Shown: one piece after another, positions 28,186-64,000 of the stretch
Numbering within the stretch: the first letter of the stretch is position 1
Layout of the letters: each line of letters starts with the position of its first letter
Assembly (NCBI GenBank): GCA_009760855.2
Contig: WPIO01000047.1
Span: 1,659,001 to 1,723,000 of the forward strand
Direction of reading: 5' to 3'
Source: Cristatella mucedo
Taxonomy: Eukaryota > Bryozoa > Phylactolaemata > Cristatellidae
Length of the DNA: 64,000 bases
Position numbers and translations under genes: made by a program
The notes under the pieces: generated by a model
The model's database searches: none
The model's input: the letters and a program-made list of their open reading frames with translations, nothing else
Told to the model about the DNA's origin: nothing

Positions 28186-49895
<21,710 letters not shown>

Positions 49896-50455
49896 AAGGA
49901 CCAGCTACACCCCGCCTCTTTCTCACGGCAGTTCCGGTAGCAGCGCCGGTCAGGTGAGTCCCCTGTCACTTCCGTAAGCCTCGATCCGGCGCTGCTGTGG
50001 GCTCCTTTTCTCTGAGAAATGGCTTGATCTTCAAGTCTTGTTTTCCGAATTTCCATATGTACCACGGTATAACGTTACTAAATGCATTTGCATAAGTATT
50101 TACCGACCTACAGATAGATATTTGTCGACGTTGTCCGTACTTGCATCCCCCGCCAGCATTGCGCGACCTGTTAATAGGTATACCTATTAATAGGAATACA
50201 AGTTTTGAAGACTTCTAAATTGGGCTGTTCACTGAAATTCAAACTATGCGTTGCCTAGGTTCGTGCACATGCGTTTATCTGGGCTGCTAAGGATCCGGCT
50301 GTGCGCGCCCACGAGGCTCAGAAGTCAGTTTTAGCCTCCGTCGTTAGGGGCAGGCACTCGTATGGGGCGATATGCACCGATTCGCATCCCACGCATGTCC
50401 GTGTAGTGCGAGCTGACTGTGTGCCTCGCAGTGACGGTTGATGAGCTGACCACGC
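49896..50455 (-). promoter_or_regulatory. Upstream region of KAT2 (5' untranslated region/promoter, inferred)
   Basis: The part next to the start codon (up to about 50000) is rich in C, G and CpG, as is common for housekeeping promoters. No TATA box or other clear motif was identified. The region is bounded upstream by the 5' LTR of the retrotransposon starting at 50456. Confidence 0.35.
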
Positions 50456-50731
50456 TGTAGTTTGAGTGTATGCCGGCTCCTCTGATGAGCCTGTGATGTG
50501 GCACTGACACAGGCCGGTAACCGCTGGTGGCCAGATGGTGGATTCACCATCAGGGTCGGCCACTGCACAGTTGTGGTCCTCGATGAATCATCGGGGTCAA
50601 CCAGAGGAGTGGAGGAGAGACTCTGAGTGTGAGAAGGGGGCGAAGGCAGTCGTGCGTCTTGCTGCTCCCCGTGCCTTGTACAATAAACCGTTGGCGTTGT
50701 TCTGGACCAGCGTTCTGTATGCCGAACCACA
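50456..50731 (+). repeat. 5' LTR
   Basis: Begins TGTAGTTTG and ends CGAACCACA. It contains AATAAA at 50682-50687, a likely poly(A) signal of the element, placed about 44 bases before the LTR end. Confidence 0.9.
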
Positions 50732-50745
50732 AGCTATTTCGTGGA

Positions 50746-52032
50746 ATGGAGCCGATGACGCCCTGGGAGATGTCTTGTGCAGCATCCCTAGGCTTCGATG
50801 GCTTCGGAGACTTCGTTGGCTGGCTGCTGAACTTCGAGAGGGAGATCGAGAAAAGTGGCTACGAACAGAGTGAGTGCCACTTGTTTTTGCTCCTTGCGAT
50901 GCAAGGCGGGGCCTTCACGTTTGCCTCGGGGCTCCCGCAGGAAGTTCAGGATGACTATGCCAAGCTTCGTGAGGCCCTAGTGAGGGCATTCACCTCGCCG
51001 GCCGGTAGAGCACGATTGCTGCACGCTGATCGGGTAACGGCTGGTCGGACTGAGAGGGCCGACAGGAGCGACCGGAGGCGGCAGCAGCGGCTACCGACTG
51101 TGTGCCAGGCGACAGAGGTTTTTCAAGCTGCCACCCCGTGGTGGCAGGCAACGGCTATCAAAGCAGTGACGGTTGGTCAGGCTGCGATGGTGTTCCACGA
51201 AGCAACGGCGTTGTGCGAGGCAACGGTCAGCGGTGTGGCTGAGGCGACGGAGAGTGAGACGGTGCACGGAGAGGCGGCGGCGTCCGCGTGGAAGGCGGCG
51301 ACGTCTGCGTGAAAGGCGGCGGCGTCCTCGTGGAAGGCGGTGGCGTCCGCGACAGAGTCGGCGGCGTCCGCGACAGAGTCGGCGGCGTCCGCGACAGAGT
51401 CGGCGGCGTCCAGGTGGAAGGCGGCGGCGGCACCCGCGACAGAGTCGGCGGCCGCGTCCGCGGCAGAGTCGGCGGCGTCCGCGGCAGAGTCGGCAGCATC
51501 AGCGACAGAGTCGGCGGCATCCGCGTGGAAGGCGGCGGAGGAACCTGCGACAGATTCGGCGGCGGAGTCTGCGGCAGAGTCGGCGGCGTCCGCCAGAGAG
51601 GTAGTGGCCGGCGATGCCGCACAAGCCATAAAGGTGACGTTGGCCTGCGACCAGCCAGTGGGCTGTGATGCGGCACAGGCAGGAGAGTGTGTGCAGACCG
51701 AAGAGTCTGCACAGGCCGGAGAGTGCTTGCAGACTGAAGAGTCTGCACAGGACGGAGAGGCTGTCCAGGAGGGAGAATCTGTGCAGGCCGCAGAGATTGT
51801 GCAGGCCGGAGAGACTGCCCAGGTTGGAGAGGGTACGCCGGACGTTGAAGCAGCTGCGTCTATCGGAGACGCGGCGGAAGAATCGGCAGAGGCGGGTGGA
51901 GCGACGACGGTTGACGTCCAAAAAACAGTGGCTGTGGACGTCAGCTCGATGACGATGGCCGGTGGATCACGTTGCCGATTGGTCGCAAAAGGCCGTGCAC
52001 CAGCTCGCCTCTTGCGATCAGCCGTCAGGTAG
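50746..52032 (+). pseudogene. gag-like frame with Ala/Ser/Glu minisatellite, one in-frame stop
   Basis: The first about 115 residues look like a retrotransposon gag: ECHLFLLLAMQGGAFTFASG followed by LPQEVQDDYAKLREALVRAF, the usual helix-rich capsid pattern. Next comes an Arg-rich linker (RTERADRSDRRRQQR), then a run of short repeats rich in Ala, Ser, Thr and Glu encoded by a 21-base unit (about 51270-51610). A second imperfect repeat of the type QAGECVQTEESA follows (about 51670-51830). A single TGA at 51310-51312 falls at a position where neighbouring units have TGG, so a point mutation is likely. The frame stays open on both sides and also upstream into the LTR. No zinc knuckle is seen. The 21-base unit lacks stops in other frames, which explains the overlapping open frames on both strands. 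Confidence 0.75.
51270..51610 (+). repeat. 21-bp coding minisatellite
   Basis: Tandem units of the form GCGTCCGCGACAGAGTCGGC and GCGTCCGCGTGGAAGGCGGC alternate. They encode Ala-Ser-Ala-Thr-Glu-Ser and Ala-Ser-Ala-Trp-Lys-Ala. Variation between units is mostly single-base, suggesting recent expansion. Confidence 0.85.
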
Positions 52033-52085
52033 CCTGTGGGGTCAGCTATTGATGATAGCTGCTATGTCGAGGATGTGTAGGGTCT

Positions 52086-52245
52086 AGTTGGCATCGTTTA
52101 TAGAGAGGCTCGTCCATTGCTGCATAGATCGCATAGATAGATAGATATATAGATATATATGCATAGATAGATAGATATATATGCATAGATAGATTGCTGC
52201 ATAGGCTCGTTTATTGCTGCTTAGATAGGCTCGTGCATGCTGCCC
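52086..52245 (+). repeat. GATA/ATAG-type microsatellite in the 3' part of the LTR element
   Basis: Repeats of TAGATAGATATAT and GCATAGATAGAT, mixed with TTGCTGCATAG units, lie between the gag-like stop codon and the polypurine tract. No open frame covers it. Confidence 0.75.
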
Positions 52246-52305
52246 TGTACATTGCAGCTACGTGTGTTGGTGCTGCAAACTTGTGACCTTAAGGTCAAGG
52301 GGGCG

Positions 52306-52580
52306 TGTAGTTTGAGTGTATGCCGGCTCCTCTGATGAGCCTGTGATGTGGCACTGACACAGGCCGGTAACCGCTGGTGGCCAGATGGTGGATTCACCAT
52401 CAGGGTCGGCCACTGCACAGTTGTGGTCCTCGATGAATCATCGGGGTCAACCAGAGGAGTGGAGGAGAGACTCAAGTGTGAGAAGGGGGCGAAGGCAGTC
52501 GTGCGTCTTGCTGCTCCCCGTGCCTTGTACAATAAACCGTTGGCGTTGTTCTGGACCAGCGTTCTGTATGCCGAACCACA
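52306..52580 (+). repeat. 3' LTR
   Basis: Nearly identical to the 5' LTR; the only difference I see is CTCTGAGTG against CTCAAGTG near the middle. AATAAA lies at 52531-52536. Confidence 0.9.
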
Positions 52581-52634
52581 ATGCTCTCAGCAACACAGTT
52601 GGCGAGCTCATTACGCCTTTCAGGACCTGCCGAC

Positions 52635-52790
52635 TACACCGTAAAAAATATAATTATGTTGTATAGCGCCCTAAGACTACTTAATCTCTATCCAGGTGGT
52701 TTTTAAAATGTTGCAGGGCTCGATCCATACGACCTTCAACGTCGTTAAGGGCGACCATCTTACCACTGGACCAAACTAGGTCGGCAGTAG
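52635..52790 (-). mobile_element. tRNA-derived SINE with family A-like tail
   Basis: Minus strand: TAGTTTGGTCCAGTGGTAAG head and a tail with CACCTGGATAGAGATTAAGT and CTTAGGGCGCTATACAA. It starts just past the 3' LTR. Confidence 0.65.
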
Positions 52791-56091: not shown

Positions 56092-59000
56092 ATGTTTTTT
56101 AGAATGTATAGAGGTCTGATCGATTCTCTGAGAGGAGCCCACAAGCCGGACTCGCAGCCGGTCGTCGGGCAGAAAACCGAAGCCGGTTTGGTCGTGAATC
56201 CCAACCGGACGATTGCGGCAGGTTGGTTCCACTTTTGTTTCTCCCGGCATCGTCCGGGGTCTCTCGCGCAGCAGAAGCGCAGGCTCGGGGCCATGCTTGA
56301 GTCCAGTGCTTTTCTCGCCCCAACTGGCACTGGCTGGTTGGTTCAAGCTGATACAGCGTGCCTAGCCGTGCCGTGCCTTTTAACAGCCAGCGAGGCGTAT
56401 GTACAGGCCACCAGCTAGATGGACGCTTCCGTTGGCTTGCCTTTTCACTAGGCGTGAGTCGATGGCGATCGCACTTCCCGATGAAAGCTGACCGGGCTTC
56501 TTGGCTGTGAAATTAGGCCGTCCCCCTCTCACTCTCAATTAGATCGATGTAGGTGCACGGGCGCCGCTATTACTGTAAGGCAAAGCCTATCTACATCCGT
56601 GCCCGGCTGTGCAGATCGATGCACCAAGCGACGAACCGAGTACCTCGGTTGAAATACTGACGCTGTGGGGCGAGATCGCTCGCGAGCTTACGGCTCGAGA
56701 CTGGGGGCCATCGTTGCACTAGCGTTTGGGCTGGCGCCACTGACTCCTCAATTATTGCTTGACAGAGTTGGCCTAGGTCCTGCTTCAATCAGCTGCCCGT
56801 TAAAGACGCACGTGCACGGGTACGGGAGTTTTATATGAACTCGGCAAGAGTTGGTGCCAGCTGTAGTCGCATAATTTTGTAGGACGTGTGTGCACACGCA
56901 TGTGTGTTTGCGCACGCATGTGTGCGTGCGGATGCAATAAAGCAAGCCTCTATCTAATTGTACATTACTTCACTGTAATGTAAGATGCTTACCTTTAACG
57001 ACCAAGGTCGTTTGCTTGAGCCCTGTGCTATACAAAACTCTCCTGCGTAACACCCACATAGTCTCCATGACTTTGTGGAGTTACAGATAGAGATACATTA
57101 CATTACTATGCAAATGACGTGTGTCAGAAAGGAAACTGAATCGTAATTTTAATTGTGGTAATGCTTGTATAGTCTACTAAGAAAACTAGATCTCGTTATA
57201 TCCACTTAGCTATGTTGCCAGAAAACATTAGCTGATTAGGTATCACAACAAAGTGCACAATTTCTGCTCTTTTTAGCACATGAATGGACCAAAGATGCAG
57301 CTTTTTTATCGTAATGATATGTCGGTTCAGCTGCCTAAGAGAACGAGGTCTTTCTAGGCACATAACGTGTGCTGGAAATTTGGTGCACTCCAGCCTAACA
57401 TGGCTGCGTGCGGCCAGTGTGTGATGGGGTTGCATGGGTTTTTAGCAGTCACTTGAACCAGTGATGTCCCTCCATGTAGTGGTGCGTTTGATTGGATCGT
57501 GTTGAGCGCTTTGCTAAAGCCACTTGCTAGCAATCTGAATGTCGGTAACTTCTTTTGTAGCCGCTGCTGCCGATGCATACAGCTGCGAGTTTGGATCGTC
57601 TACCTACTATGCCTACTGCGGCCTCGGCGGTATTCTCAGTTGTGGCCTGACACACACGGCCGTCGTACCTCTTGACATAGTCAAATGCCGGCTCCAGGTG
57701 GACAGTGCCAAGTACAAGAACCTCGGCACGGGCTTTCGCATTTCTGTCCAAGAGGAAGGAATCAGGGGTCTTGCCAAAGGCTGGGCTCCCACACTCATCG
57801 GCTACTCAGCCCAGGGGCTGTGCAAGTTTGGTTTCTACGAGATGTTCAAGATTGTTTATGGCAACGCGATTGGAGAGGTGAGGCTTGCTCTCCTAGCGAA
57901 GCAGCTGCTAGCGGTTGCCGCGCAGCAGAAGCTTTCCTTACAGCTGTTTGCCCACATTGAAATGGCCGCCGCTGCAGTGGCCATCCGCTCCTGGCCGAGC
58001 GTGTGAGTGACGTTTGGCCGACAGGACTGACCCATGCGTCGATGTCCCGGTTTTGTGTGTGTAGTTTGTGTGGCCTTGCGTTCTTTGCTCGGTCGCCGAG
58101 AGGCAGCCAAGCTCATCAAGCGTTAGCCCGCGCCCGAGCCGGTACTGTTGTGCGATGCCGGTGAAGTAATCCCTTCGACTAGTGTCGACCTTTGCGCAAA
58201 AAAAGTGGTTGCAGCGCAAACGTTTCGAACTCGCTGCCGGTTGAACATCCTACGCTGAACGTCAAGACTGATTGCGTTCTTCGTCGCCGCGTTTAAGGAA
58301 AATGCTTACCTGTGGAGGACGTCCCTCTATCTCGCTGCCAGTGCGTCGGCCGAGTTCTTTGCTGACATCGCTTTGTGTCCCATGGAGGCGGTGAAGGTCA
58401 GGATGCAGACCAAGCCTGGATGGGCAAGCACCCTGAGACAGGGCTTCCCGATCATTCTTCGCGAAGAAGGCATCGGCGGGTACGCTCTCGGCTCACTCAC
58501 AGCTCGTCTGATGATTGCGCCTATTTGAATATTGATGTCGTTCATCATTGTACATACAATGGTGGTTTATGTAATGTCATTTAATGTATCTCCGTCAGTG
58601 ACCACAAATTCACCGACTATGTGGGTGTTACACAGGTGGGTTTTGTATAGATCACACTCAAAGCCTAAGCTCCAATCGGTACTTATTCGGTAGCCAACAG
58701 ACCATGTAGCTCAACAAAGAGAAAGTGAGAGGCACGGCTGCATCATGAGAGCAGTTGACATAGCGATTAGCATGGAAGTAGCTGTTTGTTGGGTAAGTTA
58801 GCTGGGGGTAGGGTAGTAAGTTTTTTAGTTTGTTTTTGCCAACGACTCTTGCTGGTAATTACACGCCTTGTATCATCTGCCCAGTATTGCATTACGTGCA
58901 TGAAATTGCCCGTGCTTGAGTAATTTAATGTACCTCTGTGTGTAACTCTCACGAAGACTATATGGTGTTATGCAGGAGAGTTTTGTATAGCGCACTCAAA

Positions 59001-60353
59001 ACCTAAGCGGCTTTCGGTAGGCACACGCTAGCCAACAGACTTCATTCGTTTCAGCAAATGTAAAGTGACTAGAAGGAGATGAGCTCTCTGAGGGCGCTTT
59101 ATCAAGTTATTATTATTATTATTATTATTACTATTATGTCGCACTAAGAGAAATTGAGGTGCATAGCTGAGTGAGGAGAGCAGTAACTATAGTGCTTGTG
59201 TGAAAGAGGTGCCACGACTACCTCAGCGTCCAAATTGAATTATTTCACTGGCATGCTTGCTTTCGTATTGGTTCGTGTTCGAGCTGTGGCTAGGACGTTG
59301 CCAGCAATGCATGCATCCGCTGCCTGTTGTCGTAGAGGGGGCGGCAGGTGCTAACAAGCCACCATCGGTCACTCCTTCCGCCGTGGAATGAATAGTCGGA
59401 CTGCTGAGTCGCTCGCTTCCGCTCGCCCTCACCGACCACGAGGTGCGCAGTGTCGGGCTGCCAATGCATCCGAGCAGGGCGCCACCTTCCGTGGCGCCCT
59501 GCCATGACTGGTTGTGTCGTGCAATGTCAAGGCTTGGTCTCCTCTCTGGTTTGTTGCTTTCTGGTCGTGCCGCATCCCACCTTGTGCATCCGTCAGTGAG
59601 CCGCTTCAGCTGCAGCCAGCGTATTGCGCGCGGCCTCACCTCACCGTTCGCGCCTCCGCGTCCAGCTTCTACAAGGGTCTCGTCCCGCTCTGGGGCCGCC
59701 AGATCCCGTACACGATGATGAAGTTTGCCTGCTTCGAGCGCACGGTCGAAGTCCTTTACAAGTACGTGGTGCCGAAGCCGAGGAGCGAATGCAGCAAGCC
59801 CGAGCAGCTCGTCGTGACCTTCGCTGCCGGTGAGTGCTTGCGTGCGCGTCGGTGCTCGCGCGCGGCCTGCTTGTTGCTGTGCAGGCCTGTTGCTGTGCAG
59901 GCCGCCAGTTTCGCTCGATTCAAGTTTTGCGCCAAGTGACCTGCACGCACGCCTGCCTGTCATGTCGACAGGCTACATCGCTGGAGTCTTCTGCGCCATC
60001 GTGTCACATCCCGCCGACACGATTGTGTCCAAGCTGAACCAAGACAAGGGCAGCACTTTCTCGGAACAGGCTAAGAAGCTCGGCTGGGCCGGTATGTCAC
60101 GTGCCCCTCCCCCCAACTACAGCAGCCCCCTCCCCTACAAGCTGCTGCCGTCGGACGTTCTCCTAGTGACCGGTGTGCCTGCTGCTTGTTTGTAGGTATG
60201 TGGAAGGGCTTGACGACCCGTATCATCATGGTGGGAACGCTGACGGCGCTGCAGTGGTTCATCTACGACTCGGTCAAGGTCGTTTTCCGTCTTCCTCGCC
60301 CGCCTCCGCCCGAGATGCCGGCAAGCCTGAAGGCCAAACTGGGCGTGCAGTAG
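56092..60353 (+). CDS. SLC25A3: Mitochondrial phosphate carrier
   Basis: Inner-membrane carrier that imports phosphate, with protons, into the matrix for ATP synthesis. Six exons join in phase: 56092-56221, 57561-57877, 58298-58479, 59666-59829, 59972-60091, 60196-60353, giving 356 aa (human 362). Exon 1 supplies an Arg/Lys-containing leader starting MFFRMYRGLIDSLRG that ends in an Ala run continued by exon 2 (AAAADAYSCEFGS), just as in animal orthologues. The three carrier repeats show PLDIVK (residues 80-85), PMEAVK (177-182) and the family's non-canonical third motif PADTIV (278-283). Other signatures are SCGLTHTAVVPLD, KFGFYEMFK, RQIPYTMMKFACFERTVE, PKPRSECSKPEQLVVTF and the C-terminal FRLPRPPPPEMP. 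Met5 (56104) is an alternative start. All introns are GT-AG. No AATAAA was seen soon after the stop. Confidence 0.96.
56870..56940. repeat. TGTGTGCACACGCATG-type alternating tract
   Basis: Alternating purine-pyrimidine repeats (GTGTGTGCACACGCATGTGT and variants) in the first intron of SLC25A3; such sequence can adopt Z-form DNA, which is only an inference here. Confidence 0.6.
57025..57112 (+). mobile_element. Family B LINE tail
   Basis: GCTATACAAAACTCTCCTGC, GTGGAGTTACAGATAGAGAT and ATTACATTAC; tail only, in the first intron of SLC25A3. Confidence 0.7.
58590..58790 (-). mobile_element. Family B LINE, 3' fragment
   Basis: Minus-strand tail beginning at TTTAATGTATCTCCGTCAGT on the plus strand, in an SLC25A3 intron. 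Confidence 0.65.
58915..59048 (-). mobile_element. Family B LINE, 3' fragment (second copy)
   Basis: Minus-strand tail again (TTTAATGTACCTCTGTGTGT on the plus strand), about 325 bases after the first and followed directly by a family A tail. Confidence 0.65.
59050..59136 (+). mobile_element. Family A LINE tail
   Basis: CAGCAAATGTAAAGTGACTA, stem-loop, GAGGGCGCTTTATCAAG and (TTA)n in an SLC25A3 intron. Confidence 0.7.
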
Positions 60354-61620: not shown

Positions 61621-63495
61621 AAAGCACAGCCTCAAGACTCAGTTTCGAAGAGTCTACAAATCTTTTTATTGTTAATGTGGCACAATATCGTAACAGAATA
61701 CCAGATTACTTTCCTCTGAAGACTTCAAGTGCTGGTGGCGCTTTCAATATAAAGTAATTGTGACATCTAAGATTCGACTGACATCTTCGAGAAGATTCCA
61801 TCGTCGGAGTCTAGATCATGGCAACTCTTGCCTTGTTCTTTGATTAGTCTAACTCACGAACACGGGCATTTAGTTCTTCCTGTGCTATTCTGTGGGTTAG
61901 ATGATGCACCACAATGGAAAGTTTGCTGACGTACCGGAAGAACAGGTCGGCCCACCCTTGTCCTCACCAGATTAATCAAGAGAATATTCCGCTGAAGGTT
62001 CTAGAATAGGAAGTCCCTTTCCACGTGGAACTGGTCTAAGTGCAGACATAACGTTTGGGTAGGGACTATTCTCGGCTTCTTGCCTATTCGTATTTTGTTA
62101 TTTCGCCGGAAAAGGAACCAAGCATAAGTTAGAGTGATTGATGTGGTTGGTTGCTTGGCTCTCTTTATACTACGGGGACTGAAACGGCATTAACGTTCTT
62201 TTGCCATTCAACCACTAAAAACTGTTTGTGTAGCCTAGGCTTATTTAAGATGCTGCTTCTACTGGATAAATTTAAAAATAACACGTAGCATCCTTCGAGA
62301 ACCCTTTCTAGGCGCTTTACAGTTGCTGCTAAGGATAAACGATCGAATGCACTGGTAGCTTTCTGATCGTATTCGTGTTCAGTACACTAGATCGTACAGA
62401 TTTGGGCCTAAAGTCAGTACGCACAATGCGGAAAATTTGGAATACCTTAATACTACGCAATGCAAAATCGAAGTAAACCGTTATCCTTATATATACAACC
62501 CGTAAATACTATACCAGGGTAGAATAAAAATTAGTGCTTTATTAAACGTAAATATAAAAAATAGGCTGGCAACCATGCTGAACGGCCTGCTAATAGCAGA
62601 ACCTGATAGGATCACAACACACACGTGCATAGGCAGCAGTCGTTGGTTGTATATTTTGGAGATCAGTTCGCCAGGGTTACAACTGCCGCCTAGAAATTGT
62701 GGCTTATCTTGGTTTTTCGTGCCACCGGATTTTTGGGCGATGCGATTCCTCAAATTCTTATATGTTTAATGCTGTAGAGACACTACGGTCCTTTCATCGA
62801 GGCTGCTATTACAACAACGAAAGTAGTCTTTTTGTAGCCTCTCGAGTTGAAGTTCAAAGTAGAACCAATTACTGAATGTCATGATCCACCATCACCTAAA
62901 AATAATGAACCACGGTGAACGCTTTCCAGAGTGAGTGCTTCATTATTGCCTGAAGCACTAAAGTGCTCAGAGCAAGGATGAGAAGAATTTTAATCACCAG
63001 CATCCACAATTAAGTGATGCTTCGATATTAGCATGACAAATCATCATAGCAAATGACAGGGTCTACAAAAGCTGAAGGCTAATTGCTCACTTGAAAGATG
63101 CCTGATGTGCCAGAGCATTAGTGATGTTCAAAAGCTGTCATGTTGCATTCCGCTGACAACCAGATCTATATCTCACTACCTCAGAAGAGTCGAACTGAAA
63201 CGAGCCACAACAAAGTAATAATTATATTAGATATTTTAGAACTGACCTTATGAGAGCTGCATTGCCACAGCAACGTCACAACACAAACTTAGCTGAAACG
63301 TTGTGTACCAACTGTAAGCTCCTTATTGCACTTACATTCACTGCTAATATCAACAGGTAGGCAGACAAAAGTTGGCAGAGGCAGGAAGCAAAACTTGGCG
63401 CCATCTTACCTTATTTGGAGTGGAAATAGTCATGCAAGTAATGTTTAGCTAAGACACGCAGCTTGTAGCGTTCGACTTCACTAAAAAGCTGCAGT
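61621..63495. other. AT-rich intergenic DNA
   Basis: Nothing supported except a short family A stem-loop remnant at about 62280-62345 (AACCCTTTCTAGGCGCTTTA). Confidence 0.35.
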
Positions 63496-64000
63496 CATGC
63501 AGATCCGAACATGAACGTGGATAGATACGGCATCGGTTGCTACTGCAAGTGCCTTCAATGAAATTTGGATACAACGTTACTGTTGCAACAGAGGATAAAC
63601 GCTGCAACAGTAACTGTTGCCTGCTGCCTTCAGTTCTCCAAGGTAGGCAAGTCACTGACAATTGTCTCGCCAAAACAAATCTCATCACTACGGCAATCGT
63701 GGCGACATTGATTACCTCGTGCTCCGCTAGTGCTTACCTGCTTGATATTAATTCTTGGCACAGAACATCTAGTGCCATGCTTATGCTTCACGGAATAATC
63801 GTTCGGTAGCATGCAGATCCGAACATTAACGTGGATAGATACGGCATCGGTTCCTACTGCGTGCCTTCAATGAAATTTGGATACAACATTACTGTTGCAA
63901 CAAAGGAAAAACGCTGCAACACCAACTGCTGCATGCTGCCTTCAGTTCTCCAAGGTAGGCAAGTCACTGACAATTGTCTCGCCAAATCAAATCTCATCAC
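63496..64000 (+). repeat. Direct repeat, period about 314 bases, running off the window
   Basis: The segment from CATGCAGATCCGAACATGAA (63496) to about 63700 recurs from 63810 (CATGCAGATCCGAACATTAA) to the last base shown. Differences are scattered substitutions and small deletions. It may be part of a longer tandem array. Confidence 0.85.

Follow-up and report, generated by a model that had tools for sequence, protein, structure and literature searches.

The element at positions 50456..52580 of the Cristatella mucedo DNA analysed here (64,000 nucleotides of contig WPIO01000047.1, referred to as the window) is very probably a single copy of a multi-copy family of non-autonomous long terminal repeat (LTR) retrotransposons that lack pol. 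Its two LTRs, at 50456..50731 (plus strand, 276 bp, with AATAAA at 50682) and 52306..52580 (plus strand, 275 bp), have TG...CA ends and lie one substitution and one gap apart. Recurrence of the LTR seed by chance was expected 0 times (100 shuffles), and no additional LTR copy was found in the 64-kb window. A polypurine tract-like CAAGGGGG, then CG, occupies 52296..52305 on the plus strand, so that CAAGGGGGCG stands immediately upstream of the 3' LTR. A motif search of the element returned no reverse transcriptase, protease or integrase motif, loose LP[QR]G matches falling in other frames only. An earlier note on this DNA, made from the letters alone, had described the near-identical LTRs, the purine tract and the missing polymerase, and on these three points our analysis agrees with it.

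We searched the genome (572 Mb) with the LTR as query, obtaining 1755 first-look candidates, of which the best 40 were scored, the window's two LTRs included. These matches have 93-100% identity, with two fragment rows besides, and all 40 were fetched, giving 33 places: the window, six further pairs, and 26 places taken with 3 kb on each side. Internal sequence is present at 16 places, the window copy included, and the other 17 are solo LTRs. The 16 copies share one set of parts and measure 964-2412 bp, none of them pol-sized; L011 is missing the N-terminal part, which in L009 is interrupted by ~0.5 kb of inserted sequence, and L031 is missing the repeats. All 16 carry CAAGGGGGCG or a one-base variant of it (L024 being read one base off). 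Perfect 5-bp target-site duplications flank 16 of the 17 solo LTRs and four of five bases match at the remaining one, where ends may shift by one base; seven of the 12 testable full elements have perfect 5-bp duplications and two more have four of five bases. Copies L024, L029, L031 and L035 were excluded from this count (cut or altered LTRs, no duplication as read). It is unlikely that the copies with target-site duplications arose by segmental duplication rather than by reverse transcription. The earlier note had proposed looking for other copies, and had considered that all of them might carry pol; other copies do exist, and the pol-less layout holds for 16 of 16. At L014:302-2716 we also observed that another copy's 3' end precedes the 5' LTR, and L014 is probably a tandem pair with a shared LTR.

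Between its LTRs the window copy contains a single reading frame, ATG...TAG (50746..52032, plus strand, 428 codons plus stop), which begins 14 bases past the 5' LTR and is interrupted by an in-frame TGA (51310..51312, plus strand) inside a 21-bp array. At 51273, 51315 and 51510, comparable units have TGG in place of this TGA. The frame has one stop across 50746-52029, versus 5-12 in the remaining five frames, and its openness was matched by 0 of 2000 dinucleotide shuffles; for its two segments on either side of the 21-bp array, the P values for openness are 0.0035 and 0.009. In order along the plus strand, the frame comprises an N-terminal domain of 114 residues that is gag-like by resemblance only (50746..51087), degenerate coding repeats with an 18-bp periodicity that 0 of 2000 plain shuffles reached (51088..51272), a coding minisatellite of 21-bp units that also shows 24-bp spacings and a higher-order duplication of 111 bp (51273..51600), an 18-bp coding array of 36-bp dimers made of Gln, Ala, Gly, Glu, Thr and Ser codons (51673..51837), and a conserved C-terminal tail whose last residues are RLLRSAVR (51838..52032). 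Tandem Repeats Finder (TRF) called the 21-bp array at 51272-51538, and the array codes for Ala/Ser-rich units with Thr/Glu or Trp/Lys. Of the gag-like frame joined to 21-bp repeats that the earlier note had described, the coding 21-bp array stands, and the description has to be amended for the TGA break, the additional 18-bp array and the lack of support from gag profiles. The 3' untranslated region follows (52033..52305, plus strand), and holds a non-coding GATA/TATA microsatellite at ~52124-52194 that is unalignable in most other copies.

Unbroken frames occur in three of the 16 copies, L010, L024 and L034, with 409, 454 and 416 residues respectively, all ending RLLRSAVR; four of the 16 do not have the exact 12-base start string, and their frame was left unread. 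Repeat length, measured as the distance between the degenerate repeats and the tail, ranges from 335 to 918 bp among 15 copies (L031, having no array, is left out), in line with the earlier note's suggestion that the minisatellite might differ in length between copies. The array length preserves the window's frame in 11 of these 15, the window counted; this frame keeping is partly built in, because the repeat units are multiples of three. Copy L035 has the shortest array and a doubled tail piece, and measures 440 bp from the second piece, being out of frame either way. Thus, the minisatellite sits in a mostly kept frame and differs in length among copies.

The LTRs of 13 elements (without L024, L029 and L031) diverge by 0.4%-6.2%. 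A protein search gave 970 candidates, of which 150 were scored for 151 matches, and those listed have 54-100% identity. Among the family's older members, five diverged copies retain 73-88% DNA identity across the N-terminal part. In three of these (L041, L043 and L044) the N-terminal part is followed by the tail, with no room for pol; no tail can be recognised in the other two (L042 and L045), which are too decayed to tell. Because L041, L043 and L044 share it, the pol-less layout predates the present burst of copies, and the window element is not a recent one-off deletion.

We infer that such elements might propagate by means of a working Gag that packages its own RNA, with enzymes supplied in trans and a 5' piece of tRNA-Phe as primer. 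The LTR would drive transcription of the family RNA, which would encode one protein, a capsid-like N-terminal domain plus the length-variable repeat domain, and would bear the packaging, priming and integration signals. Reverse transcriptase and integrase would be provided by an autonomous LTR element at another place in the genome, and insertion would produce the 5-bp target duplication, with frequent collapse to a solo LTR. As to possible partners, Copia elements (RVT_2) are scarce in the genome, with 43 matches among 56 candidates, some of them in long open frames, and a BEL/Pao search gave no genome match, a result that came with a tool warning. One Copia element was observed at L048:1-5001; its 400-bp repeats are identical, and its open frame runs to 1003 codons.

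The candidate primer-binding site is AGCTATTTCG (50732..50741, plus strand), tentatively identified by its complementarity to positions 3-12 of human tRNA-Phe, for which we relied on the part of PMC11706605 giving the sequence. By reading, no TGG-type tRNA primer site adjoins the 5' LTR. AGCTATTTCG adjoins the 5' LTR in 14 of the 16 copies (it is deleted in L011 and misread by a base in L024), and this conservation is not independent support, because the copies are near-identical. With tRNA-Phe as the sole tRNA compared, a 10-base match to it was found in 27 of 21,324 window stretches of 29 bases, and one lying at most two bases from the start in four of 21,324, at least one of which is AGCTATTTCG itself. 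Given some 45 tRNA species, we estimate the probability of a chance match at AGCTATTTCG to be about 1%. Copia elements are described as priming at the tRNA anticodon loop, and a site in the acceptor/D arm is not mentioned in the part of PMC10886601 that deals with them. The full proposal, of a long-lived animal family of enzyme-less LTR elements that encodes a structural protein with an expandable, length-polymorphic coding minisatellite and is primed not by a tRNA 3' end but from a short 5' tRNA-Phe fragment with its 3' end near position 12, strikes us as distinctly improbable when taken whole.

Several results weigh against reading these copies as a mobile family with a Gag of its own. Three of the 12 testable full elements lack a target-site duplication, namely the window copy, whose flanks CACGC and ATGCT match at 0 of 5 positions, L014, and L026, which is a rearranged copy. 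Scoring covered the best 40 of the 1755 LTR candidates and 150 of the 970 from the protein search, and may therefore have overlooked members that carry pol between diverged LTRs. Of the 43 RVT_2 places three were read; their LTRs start differently from those of the window element, with TGTTGGC, and none contains AGCTATTTC, and no partner was found among these three. The frame is broken in nine of the 16 copies, the window copy included; Pfam and PDB sequence searches with the window protein and seven aligned copies returned no gag family, and no zinc knuckle was found in the window element by the motif search. Finally, the tests for selection on the protein, given below, are not significant. 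The recent movement put forward in the earlier note is touched by two of these points. A divergence of 1/275, the lowest among the 13 pairs, suggests that the window copy inserted recently and cleanly by retrotransposition, at a time that its LTR pair records, and we regard this as plausible, at a little short of even. The copy has no 5-bp duplication, however, and its frame is broken, and recombination between elements or rearrangement after insertion would fit it too. Because of the in-frame TGA and the missing duplication, the close similarity of the two LTRs is not necessarily the date of a clean insertion; of the earlier claim the low LTR divergence stands, and the case for recent movement of this particular copy is weakened.

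What the frame encodes may be viewed in more than one way. Two single-sequence AlphaFold models of the protein are all helical and of low confidence (mean predicted local distance difference test, pLDDT, 53 and 65), and the N-terminal domain resembles by eye a WL...L-x-G-A...Y-x-x-L pattern that we take to be typical of Ty3/gypsy capsids. The frame could instead be a captured or new gene, not derived from Gag, that is carried on a short non-autonomous LTR element, as the lack of any Pfam or PDB sequence match would allow; its start only 14 bases beyond the 5' LTR, the helical models and the likeness to Ty3/gypsy capsids speak against this origin, which we judge unlikely. The elements might also be passive deletion derivatives, in which pol was lost once long ago, amplification has been passive, and the protein is a functionless remnant. 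To this the pattern of substitutions is relevant. Among 13 young copies (L009, L011 and L031 left out), private changes number 23 synonymous and 40 non-synonymous and look near neutral, changes common to at least two copies number five and three, and there are two stops, counted without a split by sharing. Differences from the young copies that three or more of the five old ones share number seven synonymous and 10 non-synonymous. Pooling the shared with the lineage changes gives 25, of which 12 are synonymous, where a proportion of 0.32 would be expected (P 0.07), and the comparison of pooled with private changes gives a Fisher P of 0.19; neither test supports selection for the protein at a significant level. 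These neutral-looking changes, the non-significant tests and the nine broken frames are what a functionless remnant would leave. On the other hand, unbroken frames of 409-454 codons persist in three of the 16 copies, and 23 of the listed protein matches span residues 1-114 without a stop in open frames of at least 385 aa, a figure that is measured stop to stop, with L014 ending within the arrays, such that 23 is an upper guide. A passive origin is thus possible, and we consider it rather doubtful.

Elsewhere in the window, exons of a mitochondrial carrier gene lie at 57539-60353, the first of them matching Pfam Mito_carr (E 4.6e-21) and the rest assigned by eye; the gene is presumably related to the phosphate carrier SLC25A3, which it resembles, and this likeness points to an animal host. 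A C/D small nucleolar RNA of the snoU6-53/MBII-28 type, scoring higher than the gathering cutoff, lies at 62962-63052 (minus strand). The segments 636-1454, 46084-46731 and 48121-48782 belong to one repeat family with ~89-91% mutual identity, which by eye is like a long interspersed nuclear element (LINE); Pfam gave no match for two frames of this repeat family. At 63496-64000 a direct repeat of ~190 bp, 94% identical and 314 bp apart, reaches the window end.

Several known classes of small LTR element were tried as a home for the family; here and below, published systems are characterised from portions of the papers cited. Unbroken frames of 409-454 codons in three of the 16 copies rule out a TRIM, which has no coding capacity. 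Helenus, a TRIM with a tRNA-like LTR (PMC10886601), is opposed by a poor box B, the best having four mismatches in 11 positions in a search of the LTR for tRNA-like boxes A and B, and by ARAGORN, which found no tRNA gene in the window. The consensus used for the boxes is one we presumed. A retrozyme is likewise opposed by the absence of a hammerhead match, no such family appearing when 50400-52640 was compared with Rfam at E values as high as 10. The family offers a concrete multi-copy animal case in which a structural gene has been kept and the enzymes are apparently borrowed, and, inside a single genome, naturally occurring variants of one protein domain that differ in length. It therefore allows a test of whether a capsid protein of its own benefits a parasite of a parasite, and of whether a repeat domain in such a protein is free to change. 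An unusual mode of priming would be added if the primer lead is true.

The closest precedents are LTR elements of mosquitoes that lack pol and contain tandem repeats, and the plant TR-GAGs. TR-GAGs, which were defined for plants (PMC6022998), likewise have two LTRs, a gag-type gene only, no pol and multiple copies; the Cristatella family differs in its animal host, in a gag that Pfam does not recognise, and in a large, length-variable coding repeat domain held in frame. In Culex quinquefasciatus, 38 LTR elements without coding sequence are reported to contain tandem repeats (PMC3286476). These cqUNK elements resemble the Cristatella family in being from an animal, in their highly similar LTRs, in target-site duplications that are mostly of 5 bp where given, in having tandem repeats between the LTRs, and in that no master copy was found. 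They are non-coding, whereas the repeats of the Cristatella family lie in one long frame, and each of their primer sites is assigned to a tRNA in the published table, whereas the Cristatella family has a candidate site only. In the light of these elements (PMC3286476), the earlier note went too far in calling an animal counterpart unusual. CM-gag of Culex pipiens, which by its title 'contains only a gag gene' (cited in PMC3286476), would be a further transposable-like animal element with a gag gene only, judging by that title alone. PbTRIM of ants (PMC3532108) is similarly a short non-autonomous animal LTR element with many solo LTRs and young copies, and differs in its non-coding internal region, 4-bp duplications and tRNA-Leu primer site. 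Short non-autonomous animal LTR elements are also represented by ta-TRIM of tapeworms (PMC4558846), and TelKA2n of bdelloid rotifers (PMC5408684) is an animal non-autonomous LTR family without most of pol, for which the portion of the source used mentions no coding repeats. The Cristatella family differs from the mosquito elements in that its repeats are placed in a long reading frame.
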